Assembly: GCA_947491315.1 (NCBI GenBank)
Contig: CANLII010000020.1
Location: 1 to 42,881, forward strand
Direction: 5' to 3'
DNA length: 42,881 bases
Source: Ignavibacteria bacterium
GTDB lineage: Bacteria; Bacteroidota; Ignavibacteria; Kapaibacteriales; UBA961
Each line of letters opens with the position of its first letter. Positions within the stretch are counted from its first letter, which is position 1. The translations under genes and the position numbers were made by a program. Positions 18,328-42,881 of the stretch are shown here, in pieces. The notes under the pieces were generated by a model. The model worked only from the letters and a program-made list of their open reading frames with translations. It was not told the origin of the DNA and made no database searches.

Positions 18328-18983
18328 GGCGACACATTCCATAATCTATGAAAGATGCCCTGCCCGGTGATAAGTCTCATGCCATATACACCCGGATGAT
18401 AGGTATATGTATTCGGGATGAATTGAAAATCATGCATTCCTCGGTCTTGCATCATGGAGAATTCTTCGATGATTCGACCATCCAAAGTGATGATTGCGAT
18501 GCTGACAATACCGGGTGTATCAATCACATAAGACCAAGTGGTCACATCTCCTCGCATAACGGGATTCGGAATATTGTCCGATAATACACTGAATCGCACA
18601 TAGGGAAGCGGTGTATTCGATGATGAAATCCGAATCATGATGGATGTGTCAATTGTAATCGAATCTTCCTTCATTCCTTTGATATGAGCCAAGGTCATGC
18701 TATCAGAACCTGCCAGCGCCAAGCCATGAATGGTGAGCATCCCGTTTCCATTTCCTTGCCAAATCATGCTGTCCGCCGTGAGGCGCTGAAAGACTTGTAT
18801 ATCACCACCAATGCTAATGGAATCTATATAGAACACTGATGAATTTGAGAGTTTCAATGTATAATTTGCTGAGTCTTTTGTGATTTCGACAATGGATATA
18901 CTTCCTCTTTCCCCGACGGAGATTGGATTCTGTGCATGGATGATGCCATGCATGAAAAGAAATGCAATAAATAGGACAATCAT
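18324..18983 (-). CDS. Small secreted protein with a T9SS-sorting-like C-terminal domain
   Basis: 219 residues. A short signal peptide (MIVLFIAFLFMHGIIHAQ) precedes an all-beta region of ~110 residues (ITKDSANYTLKLSNSSVFYIDSISIGG), similar in style to Ig-like HYDIN repeats. The C-terminal ~90 residues (DNIPNPVMRGDVTTWSY, IVSIAIITLDGRIIEE, GVYGMRLITGQG) follow the T9SS type A sorting pattern NPV...V.I.I.D..G......G.Y.. . It overlaps both neighbours by 4 nt (ATGA), so the three proteins are made together. Surface exposure via T9SS is inferred; no function is assigned. Confidence 0.78.
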   Translation of the reverse strand: MIVLFIAFLFMHGIIHAQNPISVGERGSISIVEITKDSANYTLKLSNSSVFYIDSISIGGDIQVFQRLTADSMIWQGNGNGMLTIHGLALAGSDSMTLAHIKGMKEDSITIDTSIMIRISSSNTPLPYVRFSVLSDNIPNPVMRGDVTTWSYVIDTPGIVSIAIITLDGRIIEEFSMMQDRGMHDFQFIPNTYTYHPGVYGMRLITGQGIFHRLWNVSP

Positions 18984-20542
18984 TTTTGTTTGATGATGAA
19001 TTCTGTGCGACGATTTTTCTTTCGAGATTCTTCCGAATCATTTGGAACAAGCGGCATGTTTTTTCCCTTGCCCGTTATGATGAGTCTGGACTGTTTGATA
19101 CCTTTGGCGATCAATGCGCCAGCTACTGACTGCGCGCGCGAAAGTGATAATTGTGCATTGTCTTCTTCTTTGCCGATATCATCGGTATGACCTCGTATTT
19201 CAAGAGTGATATTGGGAGAAGATTTGAGTGAATAAAACACATCTTGCAAGACTTGATTCGCCGAGGCCGGAATGGCTGAACTACCCTTTTCGAATTCTAT
19301 CAATGCTGAATGCATGGTTCCTATTGCATCCCATGCATGAAGAATAGACTTGTCATATGAACCTCGGAATGCAGACACAAGATCCTTCCGCAGTGAGACG
19401 ATGCCGAAAACGCGATGAATATCTGCCGAAATCGGTGGGGCATAACTGATCACATAATGATTCTTCATGCTTTTGACGATATCTGCCAATACAAATGGAA
19501 ATTCTTTTGTGGAATAGATGCGATATAATTTTCCGCCCGTGGATTCAGCCAGCGCTCGCAGTGGTTCTTCATCGGTGATGCCATAAGCAATCGTATGAAT
19601 ATTCACGCCATGAGTTCTGGCATATCGAATAACCGAGTCTTGATCGGCTTTTGAGGAATTGTCGCCGCCATCTGAAAAAACAATCATCACTCTGCGTGTA
19701 TTGGAAATCTTTTGCAATTCCTCAATTCCCGCAATCGCCCCATCATAGATTGCTGTTCCACCGCCATATCCTTGTTCAACAATGGTGTCAGCATTGAATG
19801 TGACGCGAATCGGTATGGCGGATTCACCTCGCAAGCCATCAATGTTGAGCTGAGAAGTATAGGTTTCATAATCACTAGTGAGCGGGATTTCTCGGTGGAT
19901 TTTTGAGGTGAATTTGATTACGGAAATTGCATCTTCATCGGTGAGCATGTCCATCGTATTACGAACAGCTTCTTGTAATTTTCTTGCCCGCATTTCGCCC
20001 ATCGATGGTGAATGATCGAGTACCATCGATATCGCAATGGGTTTCCGGGAATCCTCATTGATCTCGCGTATTGAATATCGTGAAAGACCAATTTGACCAG
20101 GATTTGCTCCGCACGAATCAATGAGTAATCTCCAGATTGAATCTTTTCCTGTGATTACTTTTTTCCTGTCAGGACCCGCCAGACCACGCACAAAGAAACC
20201 TCTTTCATCTTTGACGCCAATTTTCAGGATGATGCTGTCCGGATAATTGCGATCATCAATGCCAAGAAGTGAAGTGGAAATTGCAGAGGCCGGTAATGTG
20301 CTGATGCTATCGGAAAATGATGCATTTACTTCCAGTTTTTGTAGGATGGAGTCATATGCAAGTGCTTTCAATTCGGAATAAGGGACCATTCTCAATACTG
20401 AATCCACAGGTTTTTCCGATGTCTGATAGATCGGTTTATATCCTGCGGGTGGCTTCAAATCCTCTATCTGCTTGATCAGCATATGAGGACATCCCGTGAG
20501 AGGAAGTAGTAAAAACAATATGAGGATGATTCGTGGATTCAT
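18980..20542 (-). CDS. Lipoprotein with VWA domain and C-terminal OmpA-like peptidoglycan-binding domain
   Basis: 520 residues. The lipobox LLPLTGC puts the lipidated Cys at 18. A beta region (about 70-165) leads to a von Willebrand A domain (about 168-350) with an intact metal-ion-dependent adhesion site: D176-x-S178-x-S180 (DHSPS), GGGTAIYDG and FSDGGDN. About 400-520 form an OmpA-like domain (ITLEIRGHTDDIG, LSLSRAQSVAGAL, GKGKNMPLVPND, NRRTEFII) that normally grips peptidoglycan. Thus a membrane-anchored adhesion module is tied to the cell wall. It heads a unit with two further envelope genes. A TATATTTG box lies 4 nt before the ATG, predicting a nearly leaderless mRNA. Confidence 0.88.
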   Translation of the reverse strand: MNPRIILILFLLLPLTGCPHMLIKQIEDLKPPAGYKPIYQTSEKPVDSVLRMVPYSELKALAYDSILQKLEVNASFSDSISTLPASAISTSLLGIDDRNYPDSIILKIGVKDERGFFVRGLAGPDRKKVITGKDSIWRLLIDSCGANPGQIGLSRYSIREINEDSRKPIAISMVLDHSPSMGEMRARKLQEAVRNTMDMLTDEDAISVIKFTSKIHREIPLTSDYETYTSQLNIDGLRGESAIPIRVTFNADTIVEQGYGGGTAIYDGAIAGIEELQKISNTRRVMIVFSDGGDNSSKADQDSVIRYARTHGVNIHTIAYGITDEEPLRALAESTGGKLYRIYSTKEFPFVLADIVKSMKNHYVISYAPPISADIHRVFGIVSLRKDLVSAFRGSYDKSILHAWDAIGTMHSALIEFEKGSSAIPASANQVLQDVFYSLKSSPNITLEIRGHTDDIGKEEDNAQLSLSRAQSVAGALIAKGIKQSRLIITGKGKNMPLVPNDSEESRKKNRRTEFIIKQK

Positions 20543-20641: not shown

Positions 20642-21934
20642 ATGAATATATTATTGATTGGCTCCGGGGGCAGAGAGCATGCATTAGCTTATGGGCTTCA
20701 TGCATCACCATCAATAAATAAGCTCTTTGCATTTCCCGGAAATCCCGGAATGCGCGGAATTGCCACCATTGTGGATTCATTGTCTCTGAATGATAGTGCC
20801 ACGATCACTGCATTTTGTCATCACAATGCTATAGATCTGGTTATTGTTGGACCCGAAGCACCACTTGTCAAGGGTCTGGCTGATGATGTACGCAAGAATG
20901 GCATAGCAGTGTTTGGTCCTTCGGCAAAGGCCGCGAGAATTGAATCTTCCAAGGGATTTTCCAAAGATCTCATGAAGAAATATGGTATTCCGACTGCCGG
21001 CTATGAGCGATTCACGGAGGAGCAATCCCATGAAGCGCATGCATATGTGAATGACAGAGCATTACCGATTGTTATCAAGGCGGATGGACTTGCCGCTGGA
21101 AAAGGCGTGATCATAGCCGAAACGCATCATGAAGCACATGAAGCGATTGATGAGATATTTTCGGGTCTATTTGCTGAGGCAGGTTCCAGCATCGTGATTG
21201 AAGATTTCTTAAAAGGTGAAGAGGCATCTGTCTTTGCGATCACAGATGGTAATAATGCTGTGTTGCTTGCACCTGCTCAGGATCATAAGCGCGCAAAAGA
21301 CGGGGACTTGGGTAAGAATACCGGTGGGATGGGAGCTTATGCGCCTGCCCCGCTCGTAACCGAAGTCGTGATGCAAAGGGTTCAAGATGAAATCGTGGAG
21401 CCAATGCTGAAGGCAATGCGCGAAGAGGGGTATCCTTTTGTGGGTTGTTTATTTGTCGGACTCATGATTGAAGATGAAAAACCATCAGTCGTAGAATTTA
21501 ACTGCAGATTCGGAGACCCAGAAACGCAGGCGGTTTTGAGTGTATTTCAGGGTGATCTTGCCAGACTACTCAATTCAGCGGCCATTGGTGCAATAGACGC
21601 AAGTGCCATGGAATCAAGAGCAAAAGGATTTGCTTGCAATGTGGTGATGGCTTCAGGCGGATATCCGGATGCATATGAGATAGGATATCCCATCAATGGG
21701 CTAGGAAAAGTCTCGGAAATTCAACATGTCCGAGTGTTTCATGCCGGAACAAAAGCATTGTCCGATGACTCAATTGTGACCGCAGGCGGTAGAGTGTTGG
21801 GTATATGTGGACTCGGTGAAACGCTTTCCGAAGCAATCGATAATGCATATAATGGACTTATTGACATACATTATCCTCACAGATATTATCGAACCGATAT
21901 TGGAAAGAAAGGATTGAATGTAACAAATCCTTGA
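20642..21934 (+). CDS. purD: Phosphoribosylamine--glycine ligase PurD
   Basis: 430 residues from ATG 20642; the frame extends upstream but the family N-terminus (MNILLIGSGGREHALA) begins here. ATP-grasp signatures are complete: FAFPGNPGMRGIA, IVGPEAPLVKGLADD, PIVIKADGLAAGKGVIIA, DHKRAKDGDLGKNTGGMGAY and EFNCRFGDPETQAVL. It catalyses the second step of purine synthesis (5-phosphoribosylamine + glycine + ATP to GAR) in the cytoplasm. The length is standard. The stop codon overlaps the TTG of the promoter of the next gene, so the sigma factor gene probably has its own start while also lying in line with purD. Confidence 0.97.
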   Translation: MNILLIGSGGREHALAYGLHASPSINKLFAFPGNPGMRGIATIVDSLSLNDSATITAFCHHNAIDLVIVGPEAPLVKGLADDVRKNGIAVFGPSAKAARIESSKGFSKDLMKKYGIPTAGYERFTEEQSHEAHAYVNDRALPIVIKADGLAAGKGVIIAETHHEAHEAIDEIFSGLFAEAGSSIVIEDFLKGEEASVFAITDGNNAVLLAPAQDHKRAKDGDLGKNTGGMGAYAPAPLVTEVVMQRVQDEIVEPMLKAMREEGYPFVGCLFVGLMIEDEKPSVVEFNCRFGDPETQAVLSVFQGDLARLLNSAAIGAIDASAMESRAKGFACNVVMASGGYPDAYEIGYPINGLGKVSEIQHVRVFHAGTKALSDDSIVTAGGRVLGICGLGETLSEAIDNAYNGLIDIHYPHRYYRTDIGKKGLNVTNP

Positions 21935-21960
21935 TATTTCACTCTTTACAATTGTCTTTG
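21931..21960 (+). promoter_or_regulatory. Promoter of the ECF sigma gene (TTG-N19-TGTCTTTG)
   Basis: TTG (21931-21933, overlapping the purD stop), 19 nt and TGTCTTTG (21953-21960), followed by CAAAG. One mismatch to TAnnTTTG but ideal spacing. The transcript would start near 21966, 9 nt before ATG 21975. It looks like a housekeeping promoter; I could not identify an ECF-type autoregulatory motif. Confidence 0.45.
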
Positions 21961-21974
21961 CAAAGTTTTTACGG

Positions 21975-22592
21975 ATGCTCAAAATGAACGGGGACAGATC
22001 ATTTCATAGGTCCCGTGCTTCTGCATCCACCGAGCTTACGGAATGTACGGATTTACAACTGTACACCATGCTCAGTGGGGGTGGAGATCGTGCACATAAA
22101 GCTTTGAGTATGTTATATAAAAGACATTCACCTCGGATCTATTCCTATTGTCGGAAAATACTCGGTGATATTCAGGCTACAGATGATATTTTTCAAGAGA
22201 CATTCGTACGATTTTACGAAATGGGTGTTTCAGGAAAGGAAATACAAAATGTGCAGGGATATTTGCTGAAGATCTCGCGCAATTTGAGTTTGAATGAAAA
22301 GGCAAAGAAATATAATAAGAGCACAATCACGATTGAAAACTTTGAGTTTCCATCATTGGACACTCCATATGAGCAGAAAGAATTATCACGATTGATTTCC
22401 ACGGCTCTTGAAATGCTTCCCGAGGATTATCGAGAGGTATTGATGCTTCGTGAGATGTATGGCTACAGTTATAATGAGATTGCGGAAATCGTTGAGACAT
22501 CCATGCCGATTGTTCGCACGCGCATTTATCGAGCAAAGCAGAAGATTCGAGTGATTCTTCAGCCATTTATAGATGATTTATACAAACATTGA
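21975..22592 (+). CDS. ECF-family RNA polymerase sigma factor
   Basis: 205 residues (ATG 21984 would give 202). The region 2 helix is visible as LYKRHSPRIYSYCRKILGDIQATDDIFQETFVRFYE, with the DDIFQETF core-binding motif, and region 4 as LEMLPEDYREVLMLREMYGYSYNEIAEI...RTRIYRAKQKIR, the -35-binding helix-turn-helix. There is no region 1.1 or 3, as expected for group 4 sigma factors. These redirect RNA polymerase to envelope- or stress-response promoters. The stop lies 10 bp before an anti-sigma-like gene, the standard pairing. The target promoter and signal are unknown. Confidence 0.94.
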   Translation: MLKMNGDRSFHRSRASASTELTECTDLQLYTMLSGGGDRAHKALSMLYKRHSPRIYSYCRKILGDIQATDDIFQETFVRFYEMGVSGKEIQNVQGYLLKISRNLSLNEKAKKYNKSTITIENFEFPSLDTPYEQKELSRLISTALEMLPEDYREVLMLREMYGYSYNEIAEIVETSMPIVRTRIYRAKQKIRVILQPFIDDLYKH

Positions 22593-22602
22593 TTAAAATA
22601 CC

Positions 22603-23793
22603 ATGAGTCAGGAATTTTCACAATTCAGTCCTTCGGAAATGATCACATTGTATATGGATGGGGAATTACCCGATGCATTACAACCATCACTTTTTGCCAT
22701 GTTATCCCAGCAGTCGGAATTGCGTCAGGAAATGCAGGATCATTTCACGGTTCGCAGACATATGGACACCAATCTGATTGCTCCTCCTCTTGCATTGGAG
22801 GAATCAATCATGAGAAGAGTTGGCGCTATAACCGTTGGTGCTTCATTGAATAGTCCTCTATCGACCGGTATTGTGGCCTCAGCAACTGCATGGATTGGAA
22901 AAGTCGTACAGCCGCTCATGTTTGTTTTGCTCGGCGCGACGCTTTCAGGAATGTACTTTGCATTCAATACTGATAAGTCCGAGCAAATTGTTCAAATGAT
23001 GAAACAAGAGAATGCCCCCATTCAACAAATCATGCAAAGTCCGGTGGTCAATGCTGCGAATAATGCGCAAATAGTGAATATGCCTTCAAAGCGCATTGGA
23101 TCTGCTATGTCGGTTACCAAAAACATGAATGCTGCAAGCATGATTGAAGATGATAATCAAATCAACAATTCCAATGCTGAAGGAAAGCTGACATCGGAAA
23201 TTGCACAACAAATATTTACTCCTTCACCAGCTGATGTGATTGTGCCGAATAATACTCAGCAAATCGATATTCCGAAAAAGGAATTGCAAGCAATCATTCA
23301 TTCAGAAGAAACTTCTCCCTTTTCACTCACCCTTCGTGGATTTACGACACATTCATTCGTGGATCAAAAAGTCACACCGAACTTTAATCCATTCATCAAT
23401 AATGTGTCTGCCGGCTTCCAATATGATCTTTCAAAAGAAGATGCTGTTTTTGTTGAAGTTGGTCAGGAATCCATTGTCCAACGATTCACCGGAATTGAAA
23501 ATAATTATACGATACAATATGATCAAACGTATCATGCGCCATGGGCAATGATTGGTTGGCAACATCGCTTTGATGCTGGCAATGCTTTCAAACCACTCAT
23601 CAGAGTTGGTGGCGGGGCAATGGAAACAGGTCCTATGGCACGCATGACAATTGGAGTGGAATATGATCTTACGCGTCATATCACCTTGATTGGTGGGATT
23701 GAAGGCATGAGTACATTCTACTCATACAAAGGTCAGGTGTTCAGCACACAAAAAGCAGGAATCACCTATGGCACGCGAATCACGCTTCGATAA
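22603..23793 (+). CDS. Anti-sigma-like protein: cytoplasmic domain, one membrane helix, linker and predicted barrel domain
   Basis: 396 residues. About 10-75 (EMITLYMDGELP, LFAMLSQQSELRQEMQDHF) look like the helical anti-sigma domains found beside ECF factors; no zinc-finger HxxxCxxC is present. One hydrophobic helix at about 102-121 (VVQPLMFVLLGATLSGMYFAF) is followed by a ~117-residue Asn/Gln/Ala-rich linker. About 239-396 are all-beta with barrel-like strands (FSLTLRGFTTHSF, NVSAGFQYDLS, KPLIRVGGGAM, ARMTIGVEYDL, AGITYGTRITLR). The layout suggests that a sigma-binding domain in the cytoplasm is joined, through an inner-membrane helix and a periplasmic linker, to an outer-membrane or periplasmic sensor. 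The N-terminal role is inferred from position and pattern. Confidence 0.8.
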   Translation: MSQEFSQFSPSEMITLYMDGELPDALQPSLFAMLSQQSELRQEMQDHFTVRRHMDTNLIAPPLALEESIMRRVGAITVGASLNSPLSTGIVASATAWIGKVVQPLMFVLLGATLSGMYFAFNTDKSEQIVQMMKQENAPIQQIMQSPVVNAANNAQIVNMPSKRIGSAMSVTKNMNAASMIEDDNQINNSNAEGKLTSEIAQQIFTPSPADVIVPNNTQQIDIPKKELQAIIHSEETSPFSLTLRGFTTHSFVDQKVTPNFNPFINNVSAGFQYDLSKEDAVFVEVGQESIVQRFTGIENNYTIQYDQTYHAPWAMIGWQHRFDAGNAFKPLIRVGGGAMETGPMARMTIGVEYDLTRHITLIGGIEGMSTFYSYKGQVFSTQKAGITYGTRITLR

Positions 23794-24910
23794 TAGTCAC
23801 ATAACTATTCTTGGCTTCGCTTGTATTATCATGTTCATGATGTTCACAATCTCTTCATGCACTCCCGTGAATGAAGTTCCAGTAGATCGAACAGGCACGG
23901 TGATTGATTCCATTACCACTGATTCTTTGTATCGAAGACATCTAATACTCAATCCAATGGTATTGGCATTCGAAACCGAGTTTCCATCCAATGAAATTGT
24001 TAAGAATATAGATATTGAAAATTCATCGGATACTCTCACTATACCAATCAAATCCATCAAACTAAAACATGGAAATAAGGGATTTTCATTGTTTTCCGAT
24101 AGTATGCAATTTGTTTTACCGCACAAAGGAATTTTGGGGAATAGTAAGTCCATTCCGATCCGATTCAATGCCCCATATGAAGGGAGATTTCATGATACGC
24201 TTGTAATCAATGATTGGAAAAACTTTTTCATTCCGCTCACTGCAATCGTTAATAGCGGTACAGTGGTTTGGATTGAAGATATCGACTTCGGAAGCATTCC
24301 ATTTGGAGAAGTGAGAGATACAATCATTCGCATCCATAATTATGGCAATGAAACAGCCGTGATTAGTAATCTCACACTCAAGGGTGATGATCCATCTGCA
24401 TTCGAATTAGTACAACAAGTCAATCAATCAATCACATTGAAACCTGGAAATAGTTTCGGCATTAAAATTAGAAGCAATTCCGATACGCAGAATGAGGAAG
24501 TGCAAGCAAGACTTGAGGCCGACATTTCCTATTCCGGAAAAGGTAATGTAAAAAGAACTGCAATCTGCAAAGCAAATGTCTATGTGAAGAGTGGTATTTA
24601 TGTGACCGATATTTCAATGCATCATGCAAAGTTGGGAGTGGTCAATGAAGCGTGGTGTACGATAGTGAATAATACATCAAAAGCATGTACCATTAGTGCA
24701 CTATTACCATATGCTGATAATCTTACTTGTAATGTGCTGATATCGGGGAATGTTCAAGGGGTAAACTTGGAAGCAGGGAAGAAATTAGCACCATTTAGAA
24801 TGAGAATTACTCCAAAAGTAAATGGACTATTTGCGATTACAATCCCATTTGTGATCATTGGCGATTCTGTGATTGATACTGTTTGCAACATCAATGGAAG
24901 GGCAGATTGA
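23768..24910 (+). CDS. Lipoprotein with three HYDIN/choice-of-anchor-D-type Ig-like repeats
   Basis: 380 residues. The start overlaps the previous gene by 26 nt and gives a lipoprotein signal with the lipobox FTISSC (Cys31). Three Ig-like repeats follow: about 50-150 (LNPMVLAFETEFPSNEIVKNIDIENSSDT), 165-270 (IDFGSIPFGEVRDTIIRIHNYGNETAVISNL) and 275-380 (ISMHHAKLGVVNEAWCTIVNNTSKACTIS), with the V-F-G-S/T-R...NxG pattern of this superfamily. These domains are structural and often mediate binding. Its place behind an ECF sigma and anti-sigma-like gene suggests a role in the same response, as sensor, regulator or product. No catalytic residues seen. Confidence 0.75.
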   Translation: MARESRFDNSHITILGFACIIMFMMFTISSCTPVNEVPVDRTGTVIDSITTDSLYRRHLILNPMVLAFETEFPSNEIVKNIDIENSSDTLTIPIKSIKLKHGNKGFSLFSDSMQFVLPHKGILGNSKSIPIRFNAPYEGRFHDTLVINDWKNFFIPLTAIVNSGTVVWIEDIDFGSIPFGEVRDTIIRIHNYGNETAVISNLTLKGDDPSAFELVQQVNQSITLKPGNSFGIKIRSNSDTQNEEVQARLEADISYSGKGNVKRTAICKANVYVKSGIYVTDISMHHAKLGVVNEAWCTIVNNTSKACTISALLPYADNLTCNVLISGNVQGVNLEAGKKLAPFRMRITPKVNGLFAITIPFVIIGDSVIDTVCNINGRAD

Positions 24911-26226: not shown

Positions 26227-29200
26227 CTATTCCGTGATGATAATTTTGCCGAAGGATGGCGCTATGAATGTATCTCCGACAACTTCAATTCTATAGACAT
26301 AGACTCCTGGTGGCATTGACACACCTTGATCATTTCTTCCATTCCATTTCAGTGTATTTTTACCGATTGAGATATCACCAGATTTTCGATACTGAATGGC
26401 ACCGCGTATATCCGCTATCGTGAGAGAATAGGTAGCTTCTTTTATCTGCGAAAGATAATTCATTTCAAATGAGATATCTGAACCACTAAATGCAGGATTC
26501 GGATAAGTACTCAATTCGTTCAATGAACTATTCAGTACGACAAGTACAGTTCTGCGAAGTGTGTCTTTATTCGCGGATGCATCTTCGGTGACCACATAGA
26601 TGATATTCTCACCCAACTCAAATCGATTCTCGGGTATATATGAAAACTCAGCTCTCATTGCAGAGCCATAAGTACCTCGCACAAAGGAATAGTCACGAAT
26701 CTTAGTATCTGAACGCAAGGCAAACGGATTATTGCGAATGAAGGTTTTTGTGGTATCAATTGGCAAAAATGAATTGTCTGAAATACGAACCGTGATGCGG
26801 GGATTCAGTGCCACAACATCATATTCGCGCACTAATTTTCCATCTGCAATAATCTCAATGGTTGGTGGTTCAATGTCTTCACCAATCGTGAGCACTTGTT
26901 TTGCAGTATTATTGAATGAAAACAATTCTGCTTTTGATTGATCGCAATTAATGCGCGCCGTCCATTCCGAAACATTTGCTAGTGCAAATGTTGAAGCACG
27001 AGATTCATAAGAAATGGGTGAATCCTTAGGAATACTCGGAATTTGTGCGACGGTGGATTCCGTATTTCCACCACCACCTATCGGTTGTTGTATGATGCAT
27101 AATGGCATATCGGACTGCGATGCCTGACGCATGGAAAGATTGAAGATATCGAGTGAACAAATCATACTATCACCTCTGATCGGCAAACCAATTCTTTGTT
27201 CAAGACCTTTCACTGTAAATGAAGTGGGCAATACGGCAAGTTCAGCTGCCGGACGATAAATCGAATTCAATGTCTTGAGATGTGGACCGGAAATTCTACC
27301 GCTTCTTTTCATTCTTACTGCAATTTCCAGATAAGGATATTGTAATGCATCGATATTGAGAAGTGAAAACTGTCCAGCATCTGATGAATCCAATGGCATG
27401 GAATTTTGTTTGGCACCATTCAAACCATGTAGTACATACTGAATCTCACCTTGACCGCGAAGAGAATCTTGTATCGACAACTCTTTCCATTCAATTGCGG
27501 GTCCGATTGGTCCTGAGAAATATGATCCTTCACGAAAAGCAATCGCATGTTCCACATTCAAAGAAAGCGTATCGGTATAAGAACCGAATGCTTCTTTTGC
27601 CGTACCGGAAAGACCGCCCTTCATGCCATAAAACACATAAGAAATGCGATAGCGGTCATCCTTTGAAATATTTGATCCATCGGGATATTGCATTCCTTTA
27701 AACACCGAATCAATAGTTGTTGCACCGAATTCTTTCAAAGTGGCAATCAGTGATTCCTCATCACCCGACATTCCTTTAGGTGTGACGATTGCACCGCGGA
27801 ATGAACCATCGGATACACTGATTGCGATGTGATCTCCTTGCTCCACAGAATCACGCAGATAGTGAATCAAATCACCACTATTTCCTGCCCGATATGTATC
27901 TTCCTGAGCACCATAAAAAGCATCAAAATCACGATATATTCCTATGCTATCAAATGGTTTTAGATGTAAGAGATTCCATTTCGAACCATTCACTCTTTCA
28001 ATGAAAGTACGATTGCCGAATTTCAGATAACCATAGCGATAATTTTCGCCCCCATTGCAAGATTCAATAAGGAGATTAACGGAGTTTTCACCGAGTGACA
28101 GAGCTTTTGATTTGGCATTCGAAACAAGATTCTTTGATTTTGATTCAGGAATGGATGCAAGATGATCTACATGAACGAATGCAGTATCTGTTATTGCTTG
28201 TGGTAATGCATGAAATGGAGTGACTTCCCATGGACTATATTGAATGGTCCTTGCATCGAATGTTCTTGTGTAGAGAATATAATCCTGAGCATTTCCGCCG
28301 GGCGTGAGTTGTACATTCGGTGTCCAATCCACATGCAATTCACCGAAAGAAAGTTGTGCAGATTCTGTTCCAGAAAATCCCGTGATCACGGATCCATCGA
28401 GTGTTTCAATGCGCAAGTCATAAGAAGTGAATTCACGATTGCGAAGCGGCAGAAGAAATCTGAATGTAGGTTTATCGCCTTGCACATTCCAGCCCGGAAG
28501 AGGATCAATCACTGTGAGTGAAGCTGCATAGACATTCATTTGAAATGCCAATACATTATTCGAAATAATATCTTCATCGACGATATTCTTCAGAGGGTCA
28601 ATCCTGAGTTCAATTCCATGTATTCCGGATTGATTCAGTGTTGGAAAAGTAAAGCTGAACTCCTGCTCAAGAGCAAATGCAGGAAACTCAATTGAGAGCG
28701 TATCTTTTCTATCAGAAACACTGCGAATACATTGTATCATGACAGGAATAGAATCCATCGTTCCGCGATTGCGGATTATACCTTTAATCGTGAAGTTTTC
28801 ATCAATTGCAGTTACAAGATCTGTTTTTATATCTTCGGAGCGAACATAGTAATCCGGATCAGATGCAATTGCAAGTTTCGTGAGTGGATCTCCAATCAAA
28901 CAAAACTGCATCATGGCATTGCGGAAAAAAGGATCTATTGTTGTGCCTTGACCAATCTTTGTTGCAAAAACCAAATCACCGATTCTGCGGAGTCCATATT
29001 TTGAAAGTGCCGTAAACATCGAGACAAAATTGAAGTAGTCCGGTGAAGTGATTCCTGTATAAGTATTCCCCGCAGATGCGATTGCTCCTTTGTCACTTTC
29101 AAGAACATATGACTCATTTCTGCATACTGTTGTCGGCTCGGCAAATGCTCCCGAATTACAAGAAAAAGTCGTGAGCAGGAAATATCTCGCCGGATTATTG

Positions 29201-31503
29201 AGGTCTTGCGCTCTCCAACCATCGAGCTCGAAATATTCTGGTGAGCCATGTCCTGCGAAATTCACCCAAAGTGAACCATCATTCACTGCAGATCGAATTT
29301 GTGTTGCGATACTTTCATCCACTCCTCCGACTTTGTTTAATCTGCGAATGCGAATGGAATCACCGGAAATCGGTGGGTCCAAAACAAAAGGAGCTATACC
29401 GTCAAATTGATTATGGAAGAATGGGTCATCTGCATCACCACCCGAGAGAAAAATGAACTTCTTCATCCAAGGTGCTGCACCAATGGAGTCATATTGGATG
29501 AGTTTATCAACGACTTTCTCGGCTTGTACGGCAGAACTAACACTTAGTCTTCCAAGGATGAGTTCCGGATCAATGGAATCATTGCTTGGCATTGTAAACC
29601 AAATGTCACTTACTGGAAAACCAAATGAGGGAATGAAATCTTCTTGATGTGCCTTGAATGTGAGTTTGAGTGGATCCCAACTTGCATCACCCATAAAAAT
29701 GATATAAGCGGGAACTGGAAATTGCCAAGAGCGATGTGTATGTCTGATGAAATTCTTGATTGCATGTGCATCTTTAGAACCATGTCCGAATTCTTTGTAA
29801 ATGTCCTCGCTTGAAATCACTGATACGGAATAGCCTTGCGATCTTCTATGCTGCGCCAAGCGCTCTGAAGCTTGAAGAAAAGCAGGATGTGAAATCAGCA
29901 ATACATCAGCTTGTCGAGAAGAATCACGCAATGAACTTTTGGGAACTGCATGTATTTCCGGGAAAACCCATGCGAGTGAATCAACAATCATTCCTTGAAA
30001 TATTCCGGGAAGAACCGAAAGAGTTGCATTGAATTGATTTCCGGAAGTATTGGCATTTTCAAGAGTGAACAATTTGCGAGCAGTGTCTATAACTATGAAT
30101 GAAGCACTTCGAAGATCAGTGAATGTCATCGATACAGCATTTGCGAGTGAATCCTCGAATGCTAAAGTTCCATTCAATAGACGAAGTGGTGACAATGAAG
30201 AAGTGGTCACATAATCAATGAAGGATTCGGTGACAAGTGTATCAGAAACAGGAATCGATTCAATGCGAAGAATATTCGGACCATGTGTGATTTGTGATGG
30301 AGCGATTTCAATATTCGTGACATGATCGGCAAATCCACCAAATGAATCTCTTTTGATGAGTGCATTATTCCAGAAGATGTCATATCGATGTTCAAATTCA
30401 ATGCTTGGCCGGTCATTTGCCCCATGAAATGCAATGCGAACATTCATTGGAGTGATTGACTGAGGAACTATGATCGTATCGATGAATGTGCGGAAATATT
30501 TGATTGTACTGATTTTTTCCCAGAAGAAATTCTTGCCTGTTGAAAAATCAGAAGACAGATAGCGATAGTCCACAGGACTGATCACATCACCGGCATAGAA
30601 TTCCGTGTCCTTTTCATGATGGATATTCACCCTTACTGCGGTATCGGAAAGTATCGGCATGATTGGAGGAAATGCAGTGAGTCTGTTTTTTGCAGTTGGT
30701 ACATCATTGAGAGTCAAGAAGAAACTTGCTTCATCAGTGACATAATTTCTCCATGTTGTATCACCTTCAGCTCTATGCGCCGCAAATATGATTACATCAT
30801 CATCATCCACTGTGCCATCTTGATCGATGATACCGATGGGATAAGATACACCTTTGAAAAACAGTTCCAATTGCGCGCTTGATTCGCCTTTCCAATTTTG
30901 TTGTTTGGAGAGAATCTCACGCATCTTCACATGAGCGATACCATCTTGCTTGGTGATGAGTTTCACATAGTCTTGCTTTGCGCTATACCAATGATCGGAC
31001 AGGATTGATTCCGACTTTTTCCGTGAAATGCGTGAACCCGGAATATGATGTGGATTGATGATATGAGCGAGGAGTCCTTTTTCTGAAAATGGAATCCGAT
31101 ATATAGAAGAAGCAAGATCAGGAGTCGCAATGTTTATGCTGAATGAATCTGCAATCAACCATGTATTATTCTCATCCTGTTTGATTGGATGAAAAGAAAA
31201 GTCAGCTATTTGGATACCACGGAAAATTGATCGTTTTTGAATGGTTGGAATGAAGATTCCATGACTTGTATCACCTTTGAATTCGCGCCATGCATGTACA
31301 TCAACAGTGATTGTTGGCTTTGCTGCATGTGGAAGAGCCATCGTAAACCCCATTCGTGAATTAGCTTTCAGGAGATCACTATGAGTGGCATGAATGATAA
31401 GCATACCGTCTGTTTGTTTTGTGTGAATACGCGCATCTGCTTGAAGCACGAATAGTAACAAAAACAGAATGTAACCGAACATATATGTGAAAATGGATTT
31501 CAT
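26227..31503 (-). CDS. C25 (gingipain/PorU-like) peptidase with ILEI-like domain and FlgD-type C-terminal domain
   Basis: 1758 residues with a signal peptide (ending VLQADA). An N-terminal beta region of ~530 residues precedes the caspase-like C25 domain (about 540-880; VLLISHPAFLQASERLAQHRRSQG, VPAYIIFMGDASWDP, LGRLSV) with His752 in FAGHGSPEYF and Cys782 in TTFSCNSGAF. About 890-990 resemble a CARDB adhesion module (RNRGTMDSIPV). About 1150-1310 resemble the ILEI/FAM3 domain (FDSIGIYRDFDAFYG, DHIAISVSDGSFRGAI, SLIATLKEFGATTID). The end (about 1675-1758; SSLNELSTYPNPAFSGSD, WNGRNDQGVSMPPGVYVYRI) is a FlgD-like/T9SS tail. PorU is the sortase of T9SS that removes sorting tails; a secreted gingipain-like protease is the alternative. 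P. gingivalis PorU is about 1160 residues, so this one is much longer. Confidence 0.88.
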   Translation of the reverse strand: MKSIFTYMFGYILFLLLFVLQADARIHTKQTDGMLIIHATHSDLLKANSRMGFTMALPHAAKPTITVDVHAWREFKGDTSHGIFIPTIQKRSIFRGIQIADFSFHPIKQDENNTWLIADSFSINIATPDLASSIYRIPFSEKGLLAHIINPHHIPGSRISRKKSESILSDHWYSAKQDYVKLITKQDGIAHVKMREILSKQQNWKGESSAQLELFFKGVSYPIGIIDQDGTVDDDDVIIFAAHRAEGDTTWRNYVTDEASFFLTLNDVPTAKNRLTAFPPIMPILSDTAVRVNIHHEKDTEFYAGDVISPVDYRYLSSDFSTGKNFFWEKISTIKYFRTFIDTIIVPQSITPMNVRIAFHGANDRPSIEFEHRYDIFWNNALIKRDSFGGFADHVTNIEIAPSQITHGPNILRIESIPVSDTLVTESFIDYVTTSSLSPLRLLNGTLAFEDSLANAVSMTFTDLRSASFIVIDTARKLFTLENANTSGNQFNATLSVLPGIFQGMIVDSLAWVFPEIHAVPKSSLRDSSRQADVLLISHPAFLQASERLAQHRRSQGYSVSVISSEDIYKEFGHGSKDAHAIKNFIRHTHRSWQFPVPAYIIFMGDASWDPLKLTFKAHQEDFIPSFGFPVSDIWFTMPSNDSIDPELILGRLSVSSAVQAEKVVDKLIQYDSIGAAPWMKKFIFLSGGDADDPFFHNQFDGIAPFVLDPPISGDSIRIRRLNKVGGVDESIATQIRSAVNDGSLWVNFAGHGSPEYFELDGWRAQDLNNPARYFLLTTFSCNSGAFAEPTTVCRNESYVLESDKGAIASAGNTYTGITSPDYFNFVSMFTALSKYGLRRIGDLVFATKIGQGTTIDPFFRNAMMQFCLIGDPLTKLAIASDPDYYVRSEDIKTDLVTAIDENFTIKGIIRNRGTMDSIPVMIQCIRSVSDRKDTLSIEFPAFALEQEFSFTFPTLNQSGIHGIELRIDPLKNIVDEDIISNNVLAFQMNVYAASLTVIDPLPGWNVQGDKPTFRFLLPLRNREFTSYDLRIETLDGSVITGFSGTESAQLSFGELHVDWTPNVQLTPGGNAQDYILYTRTFDARTIQYSPWEVTPFHALPQAITDTAFVHVDHLASIPESKSKNLVSNAKSKALSLGENSVNLLIESCNGGENYRYGYLKFGNRTFIERVNGSKWNLLHLKPFDSIGIYRDFDAFYGAQEDTYRAGNSGDLIHYLRDSVEQGDHIAISVSDGSFRGAIVTPKGMSGDEESLIATLKEFGATTIDSVFKGMQYPDGSNISKDDRYRISYVFYGMKGGLSGTAKEAFGSYTDTLSLNVEHAIAFREGSYFSGPIGPAIEWKELSIQDSLRGQGEIQYVLHGLNGAKQNSMPLDSSDAGQFSLLNIDALQYPYLEIAVRMKRSGRISGPHLKTLNSIYRPAAELAVLPTSFTVKGLEQRIGLPIRGDSMICSLDIFNLSMRQASQSDMPLCIIQQPIGGGGNTESTVAQIPSIPKDSPISYESRASTFALANVSEWTARINCDQSKAELFSFNNTAKQVLTIGEDIEPPTIEIIADGKLVREYDVVALNPRITVRISDNSFLPIDTTKTFIRNNPFALRSDTKIRDYSFVRGTYGSAMRAEFSYIPENRFELGENIIYVVTEDASANKDTLRRTVLVVLNSSLNELSTYPNPAFSGSDISFEMNYLSQIKEATYSLTIADIRGAIQYRKSGDISIGKNTLKWNGRNDQGVSMPPGVYVYRIEVVGDTFIAPSFGKIIITE

Positions 31504-41727: not shown

Positions 41728-41815
41728 ACATTCTTTGTAGCTTTTTTGTGGTGTATGGGCTGAGTTTTCAGCGTAATTTCGTGTCATATAATGAATGCAA
41801 TTTTTAAGGTTTGAT

Positions 41816-42517
41816 ATGAAAAAGAATTTCATGAGCATATTGCTCGCAAGTTTCGTGTTCTTCGGTCTTGCAACATTTGCTTCAAGTTGCAAAGATGATT
41901 CATGCGTGAATCCAACTGAGACTGCTGCTATTGTTGATATTGAAGCTTTTGACATCGATGCAACATATGCGAAAGTATTTTCCGGTAATGGCGATGTCAT
42001 TGAACAAAATGATCCACGCGGTGGTGGACCTGGCAAGCGTGATTCAGTACGCGGCGGTGGTCGTGATACAATCAAGCGTGATACATCTTCAAGACCAATG
42101 CCATGGCAATCTGTTCTTCCATGCCTGAAACTCACACCTGAGCAAAATGCAAAATTGCGTGAATTCATGATGGCTCAACGCGAATGTGAAAAGTCAGCTC
42201 GCGATCAATTTCGTACTGAATTAGAACCATTGCGCAGAGCTCAGAAAGCTGCAATGGATGCAATCCGTGCAGATCTCAAAGCAGGTACAATCACTCGTGA
42301 AGAAGCAAATGCAAAAGTGAGAGCTCTCAATGAGCGCATGAAGAATGCAACTCAAGAAGCCGAAGCGAAAGTAAGAGCAGCGGTGAAAGCATGCATGGAT
42401 AGATTTTTTGCAAGATTGGAATCCATCTTAACACCTGAGCAACTCGCTTTGTGGAATGAATGGAAAAGAACAGGCAAATCTCCTTGCCCAAAAAATCCAA
42501 TTGGCGTTAGACCATAA
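41816..42517 (+). CDS. Spy/CpxP-like lipoprotein with two LTPEQ motifs and an RGG-type linker
   Basis: 233 residues from ATG 41816, which follows AAGG and begins a clean lipoprotein signal (MKKNFMSILLASFVFFGLATFASSC; Cys25). The next ~70 residues are acidic and then basic with repeated RGGG and RDT (PRGGGPGKRDSVRGGGRD). From about 100 the protein is a long charged helical hairpin bounded by LTPEQNAKLREFM and ILTPEQLALWNEWK, the pattern of the periplasmic chaperones Spy and CpxP. Four Cys lie in or beside the helices. It may be a periplasmic chaperone or metal sensor. It has its own terminator, and the next gene encodes a similar signal peptide. Confidence 0.82.
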   Translation: MKKNFMSILLASFVFFGLATFASSCKDDSCVNPTETAAIVDIEAFDIDATYAKVFSGNGDVIEQNDPRGGGPGKRDSVRGGGRDTIKRDTSSRPMPWQSVLPCLKLTPEQNAKLREFMMAQRECEKSARDQFRTELEPLRRAQKAAMDAIRADLKAGTITREEANAKVRALNERMKNATQEAEAKVRAAVKACMDRFFARLESILTPEQLALWNEWKRTGKSPCPKNPIGVRP

Positions 42518-42572: not shown

Positions 42573-42798
42573 TTTATATGTGTAACCGATTCTCATTGTC
42601 AATGTTACTCTATTCAAGAAGGAAATGATAGATGAAAAAAGAATTCAAAAGGTAATGTAACCAAGCTTCATCATCAATGTTATTACTTCTGAAACACATG
42701 AAAACATTTGAACGAGAGGTTCAGTCAGATCGCCGGCAATCTGCATGACAGCTCACCAAATACAGAATACCTTTTAACTTTCTATAAGGAATAGAACA

Positions 42799-42881
42799 AT
42801 GAACAAACTGATCACAAAAAGCATGTTTTTGCTTGCAGCAGTGTTCGTGACAGTATTTGCATCAAGCTGTACTGATCAACT
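42799..42881 (+). CDS. Lipoprotein, 5' end only (continues beyond window)
   Basis: 27 codons are visible from ATG 42799: a lipoprotein signal (KSMFLLAAVFVTVFASSC, Cys24) followed by TDQ. The signal ends in FASSC like that of the upstream Spy-like lipoprotein, so the two may be paralogues or simply share a signal type. AAGGAATAGAAC lies before the ATG. The 226 bp between the terminator and this start show no other gene. Too short to assign a family. Confidence 0.75.
   Translation, partial: MNKLITKSMFLLAAVFVTVFASSCTDQ

Follow-up and report, generated by a model that had tools for sequence, protein, structure and literature searches.

The question raised by the locus described here is whether three adjacent genes, encoding an extracytoplasmic function (ECF) sigma factor, a protein joining an anti-sigma-like N-terminus to a C-terminal beta-rich domain, and a lipoprotein, work together as a device which reports from the outer membrane to the cytoplasm. 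The genes lie in contig CANLII010000020.1 (assembly GCA_947491315.1), from an Ignavibacteria bacterium of the Kapabacteria order; the whole stretch of 42,881 nucleotides, read on the forward strand, is called the window. The sigma factor gene (21975-22592, 205 aa) is followed after 10 bp by the fusion gene (22603-23793, 396 aa), which overlaps by 26 bp the lipoprotein gene (23768-24910, 380 aa, about three Ig-like beta-sandwich repeats), all on the forward strand, as are the features located within them; gene order, gap and overlap, first recorded in an earlier note made from the sequence alone, are borne out by the open reading frame coordinates. The full explanation which accounts best for the data, to which a probability of about 0.72 is assigned, is that sigma factor, fusion and lipoprotein act as one unit which signals across the envelope.

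The fusion is not a chance product, since it was found in 59 of 61 relatives by protein search, with up to 26 matches in a single genome, and in 118 of the 123 genomes of the Kapabacteria order by alignment search, where paralogues are often numerous. An ECF sigma gene is located directly upstream, on the same strand, for 218 of the 222 distinct complete fusions, at a median distance of 17 bp (first 164 pairs). The fusion is named neither by Pfam, above cut-off, nor by NCBIfam; it belongs to a large, order-wide, previously unnamed family in Kapabacteria. Beyond the order, most matches cover only the N-terminal half and fall in short open frames, which denotes anti-sigma factors lacking the barrel; two such examples have a sigma gene upstream (loci L064 and L065). 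The same fusion was detected in another family of the same class, with a barrel match of E 1e-17 (L061). In a related genome, again of the same class, a class I anti-sigma domain is combined with a C-terminal beta-rich domain not recognised by the barrel profile, possibly a barrel of another type (L063, 1495-2790).

The identity of the first gene is provided by Pfam matches to Sigma70_r2 (E 5e-10) and r4_2 (E 2e-15), and the solved structures nearest to its product include SigH/AlgU (6in7) and RpoE (1or7). The helical N-terminus of the fusion (residues 1-78, 22603..22836) is identified, by profile search and by its co-variation with the sigma factor, as an RseA-type (class I) anti-sigma domain. 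A profile built on 24 homologues was run against 177,635 PDB sequences, and its best three matches were RseA (1or7_C, E 0.0011), DdvA (E 0.0086) and RsiW (E 0.074); the Pfam model RseA_N, applied to the window fusion, stayed below cut-off. Asp19 and Gly20 are invariant in an alignment of 28 sequences and align with D11-G12 of RseA, where one substitution at D11 abolishes RseA activity (PMC7406223).

Co-variation between the domain and its sigma factor was evaluated on 216 pairs; the reference was the set of contacts shared by four co-crystal structures (Table 2 of PMC7406223), to which the pair 178-11 was added. The column of Asp19 contains Asp or Glu in 213 of the 216 pairs, and that of RpoE R178, the known partner of RseA D11, contains Lys or Arg in 209. 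The numbering follows the E. coli RpoE and RseA sequences, the RseA part matching the PDB alignment. Seven of the ten inter-protein pairs co-varying most strongly by mutual information lie within 4 residues of a co-crystal contact on both sides, a tolerance picked after the result of a smaller direct coupling analysis had been seen, mutual information top-pair statistics being used thereafter. The near-contact zone covers 8% of all matrix cells; shuffling gave a mean of 0.17, and 7/10 was reached in 0 of 259 shuffles. Contacts with sigma2 and sigma4 are indicated by the co-varying pairs 150-40, 151-46, 19/23-52 and 34-48, in RpoE/RseA numbering. As a mispairing control preserving relatedness, partners were swapped among paralogues of the same genome: the swapped sets gave at most 2/10, against 6/10 observed in that subset, and 0 of 250 reached the observed value. 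The interface co-variation supports both the binding of sigma to the fusion and the insulation of paralogous pairs from each other. The interaction of the N-terminus with the upstream sigma factor, on which the reading in the earlier note depended, is in this way backed in silico at a known interface.

The remainder of the fusion is predicted to cross the envelope. A hydrophobic segment (residues 101-119, 22903..22959; mean Kyte-Doolittle value 1.59, which is modest) lies within a helix spanning residues 92-132 in the AlphaFold2 model, and is predicted to be an inner-membrane helix; according to the positive-inside rule, flanking charge predicts its N-terminal side to be cytoplasmic for 82% of 168 homologues. 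Residues 120-238 (22960..23316) form a predicted disordered, periplasmic linker, with predicted local distance difference test (pLDDT) values below 50 over most of it. Its length, about 116 residues in the window fusion and 104-199 in the 168 homologues (median 135, never below 104), is such that it could span the periplasm if extended. The C-terminal all-beta domain (residues 239-396, 23317..23790, about 161 residues) is modelled with exactly eight strands between residues 240 and 394, mostly at pLDDT 84-97. Its top structural matches are outer-membrane barrels, namely Legionella porin III (Z 15.8) and OmpA, NspA and OprF (Z about 14). In the aligned strands, outward positions are occupied by Leu, Ile, Val, Phe or Tyr through most of their length, and a conserved set faces the lumen (R245, E285, E289, Q308, R320, Q334, R347, E367 and K384, consensus residues numbered by the window fusion). 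The final residue is Phe, Leu or Tyr in 138 of the 168 homologues. The predicted eight strands, lipid-facing exterior and polar lumen are features of small barrels of the OmpA type, and every computed sign points to a transmembrane barrel. A model of the fusion alone, suggested earlier as a check, thus gave helix, disordered linker and 8-stranded barrel; the path from cytoplasm through inner membrane and periplasm to outer membrane, already proposed from the sequence, is strongly supported by prediction, and in silico the C-terminal domain has the look of a barrel for the membrane, not of a soluble domain.

The third gene encodes a lipoprotein whose signal peptide ends in ISSC31. The earlier note had credited it with three HYDIN-type repeats; one domain is significant in Pfam (PF22544, 26.9 bits vs a cut-off of 25.5, E 6e-6), a match to choice_anch_D is below cut-off, and in the AlphaFold2 model the part beyond residue 58 contains roughly three stretches of beta-sandwich. 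A lipoprotein gene comes next, within 250 bp, in 170 of the 213 operons having enough sequence. The 14 residues which follow the lipidated cysteine carry a motif, roughly C-x-S/D-P-x-D-L/I/V-D-x-P/N-R; in the window, lipidated Cys31 and the tail (CTPVNEVPVDRTGTVID, 23858..23908) show the genus form CTPVNEVPVDR. The tail score was passed by 84% of operon lipoproteins in five-fold cross-validation, versus 0 of 25 control lipoproteins, which came from random stretches, 400 kb in total, of four Kapabacteria genomes, including that of the window. The bodies attached to the tail belong to about nine groups of at least three members, devoid of detectable mutual similarity, plus singletons. A common tail on unlike bodies suggests docking to a shared partner, for which the barrel is the obvious candidate. 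Co-variation between barrel and tail is above the mispairing null. The more specific idea that the tail is threaded through the barrel lumen was dropped, since controls with the anti-sigma domain and with sigma pick the same lead residues.

Gene order, domain identities, interface co-variation, membrane-barrel character, the shared lipoprotein tail and a promoter motif were all computed here, and are combined in the following model. The class I domain of the fusion would hold the ECF sigma factor in the cytoplasm, away from RNA polymerase, while the same chain would pass the inner membrane with one helix, cross the periplasm with its disordered linker and end in the outer membrane as an 8-stranded barrel. 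Through the tail common to its class of partners, the lipoprotein would join the barrel as an input module, with its variable body turned toward the signal. On arrival of the signal, sigma would be freed, most likely by proteolysis of linker and membrane segment, and would then transcribe its own operon. Two M50 (RseP-family) and two HtrA-like proteases are encoded in the genome; a cascade of the usual kind is therefore possible, and the earlier idea that the fusion could do without one loses weight.

The last step of the model, autoregulation, is suggested by the sequences located upstream of the sigma genes. TGTAAC occurs in 59 of 216 such regions, compared with 12.2 expected, and is followed at a fixed spacing of 17 bp by a second box, GTTATT, the layout expected for an ECF promoter. 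In the window the putative promoter maps at 21919..21949 on the forward strand (TGTAAC, 17 bp, CTCTTTAC), the family consensus being TGTAAC-N17-GTTATTAC. The full pattern has 5 matches in the genome, two of them directly before the window operon and before a paralogous operon on contig C5; with 8 matches for the reversed control pattern, no wider regulon is claimed past these two operons.

A perfect site of the type TGTAAC-N17-TGTTATTA is also found at 42656-42685 of the window, 114 bp ahead of the start of a lipoprotein gene (42799-42881) which is truncated by the end of the contig. Such a sigma factor might have another target here, but genome-wide, matches to the pattern are not above chance.

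Some results weigh against the trans-envelope reading. The predicted membrane helix of the window fusion is only moderately hydrophobic, and its barrel ends in ...ITLR, i.e. in Arg instead of Phe. A Gaussian direct coupling analysis of 163 sigma/fusion pairs returned exact contacts without overall enrichment, and about 20% of the operons have no adjacent lipoprotein by the method used. In addition, barrel residues 310, 312 and 314, which lead the co-variation with the tail, lead also that with the anti-sigma domain and with sigma; because they may merely mark subfamilies, a contact between tail and barrel is not claimed. As a rival explanation, the beta domain might be a soluble periplasmic barrel, and the fusion an ordinary inner-membrane anti-sigma factor with a periplasmic sensor. 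Soluble barrels such as PsbO do match the model, at Z about 10, but lower than the outer-membrane barrels, and the hydrophobic outward positions, the charged, conserved lumen and the frequent C-terminal aromatic residues make this explanation highly improbable. An unlikely alternative is that the barrel serves as the anti-sigma factor's own test client of the beta-barrel assembly machinery: failed insertion would expose its C-terminal beta-signal, and a DegS-like protease would then cut the linker and free sigma. The Phe, Leu or Tyr ending of most members fits this mechanism, as do the HtrA-like and M50 proteases of the genome, and C-terminal peptides of this kind activate DegS in E. coli. However, a genome often holds numerous paralogues, each accompanied by a sigma factor of its own and in most cases by a lipoprotein, which suggests that there are several distinct signals and not a single general assembly signal; the Arg ending of the window fusion also speaks against such a reporter, which leaves the conserved lipoprotein unaccounted for.

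A further comparison concerns the Dma proteins of gut Bacteroides, anti-sigma factors reaching from the cytosol to the outer membrane, encoded next to ECF21 sigma factors (Dma1, Dma2) and associated with the control of outer-membrane vesicle formation, so that the layout, put forward in the earlier note as a candidate for an undescribed system, was already known (PMC13088901). A literature search with terms for an anti-sigma factor joined to a barrel returned no direct description of such a protein. Dma proteins were first reported in 2024 by Pardue et al. (PNAS, e2321910121), reportedly with details of tether and barrel, and the work was extended in 2026 (PMC13088901). Comparisons were made with 24 distinct Bacteroidia proteins, barrel fusions encoded next to a sigma gene and taken as Dma-like, a set from which the Dma1 sequence itself is absent. 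The Kapabacteria fusion shares with Dma a cytosolic N-terminus predicted, from co-variation, to bind the neighbouring ECF sigma factor, followed by a predicted inner-membrane helix, disordered linker and C-terminal barrel. The alike order of parts and sigma-first operon, together with a weak match between the barrel profiles (hhalign probability 60%, 53 columns), would be compatible with a true homologue of Dma which diverged past detection, with no independent assembly. This origin is considered rather doubtful. The N-domains are unrelated by profile (hhalign probability 2%), with about 95 residues before the helix in the RseA-like form as opposed to about 48, roughly half, in the Dma-like one; in a matched control search of the PDB, the Dma-like N-segments matched no anti-sigma factor. 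The sigma factors of the Kapabacteria operons and of the Dma-like operons fall into different clades (support 100/98), and a Dma-like query found nothing in the window's own genome and one weak match in the genomes of the order searched. The Kapabacteria fusion would operate in the manner of Dma; since its N-domain has no detectable relation to the Dma-like proteins of Bacteroidia and its sigma clade is separate, an independent assembly is probable. The third gene, a lipoprotein with a common tail, is new relative to Dma: in the Dma-like operons a lipoprotein comes next in just 5 of 24 cases, all without the tail motif. In another member of the Bacteroidia, a protein encoded behind an ECF sigma gene has an N-terminus weakly resembling class I (E 0.002) and no barrel match (L243, 2696-3541, reverse strand).

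With RseA and other class I pairs (RpoE-RseA, AlgU-MucA, SigW-RsiW) the Kapabacteria unit has in common the anti-sigma domain, the Asp-Gly motif, the surface facing regions 2 and 4 of sigma and the single inner-membrane helix, but RseA has no outer-membrane barrel and receives its signal through DegS, RseB and RseP. As in FecR/FecA cell-surface signalling, a signal would pass from the outer membrane to an ECF sigma factor; there, transducer and anti-sigma factor are separate proteins, whereas a single polypeptide is found in Kapabacteria. A Pfam scan detected no FecR domain in the fusion, and no TonB-dependent receptor was found among the three operon genes and the flanking genes scanned. A possible analogy is RcsF with OmpA/BamA, where the envelope sensor consists of a lipoprotein and a beta-barrel in which the lipoprotein tail is held.

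A wider proposal, held tentatively and at somewhat less than even odds, is that trans-envelope anti-sigma factors evolved independently a second time, as an order-wide class based on an RseA-type domain. The barrel would be gated by the lipoprotein of the same operon, in which the docking tail is common and the sensor body exchangeable, many insulated copies per cell reporting different surface signals. If so, an anti-sigma factor and an outer-membrane barrel would have been joined in one chain at least twice in nature, and trans-envelope anti-sigma factors would be a general solution and not a Bacteroides oddity. The lipoprotein tail would offer a concrete answer to the question, posed by Dma, of the signal and partner of the barrel. 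Paralogues with differing sensor bodies and one docking tail would make up a modular array for sensing at the envelope. The co-varying positions of sigma and anti-sigma would reveal how many pairs are kept insulated in one cell.

A scan of the neighbouring genes identified purD upstream and a lipoyl ligase downstream, so that the sigma, fusion and lipoprotein genes stand alone as a unit. Adjoining purD, a lipoprotein with vWA and OmpA domains is encoded at 18980-20542 on the reverse strand. At 26227-31503, also on the reverse strand, lies the gene for a 1758-aa peptidase of the C25 (gingipain-like) family which has an Ig domain of FlgD type at its C-terminus, as is met with type IX secretion. 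Finally, a lipoprotein encoded at 41795-42517 has a weak match to LTXXQ (Spy/CpxP-like; E 1.7e-4, slightly under the curated cut-off), and may be an envelope-stress chaperone.

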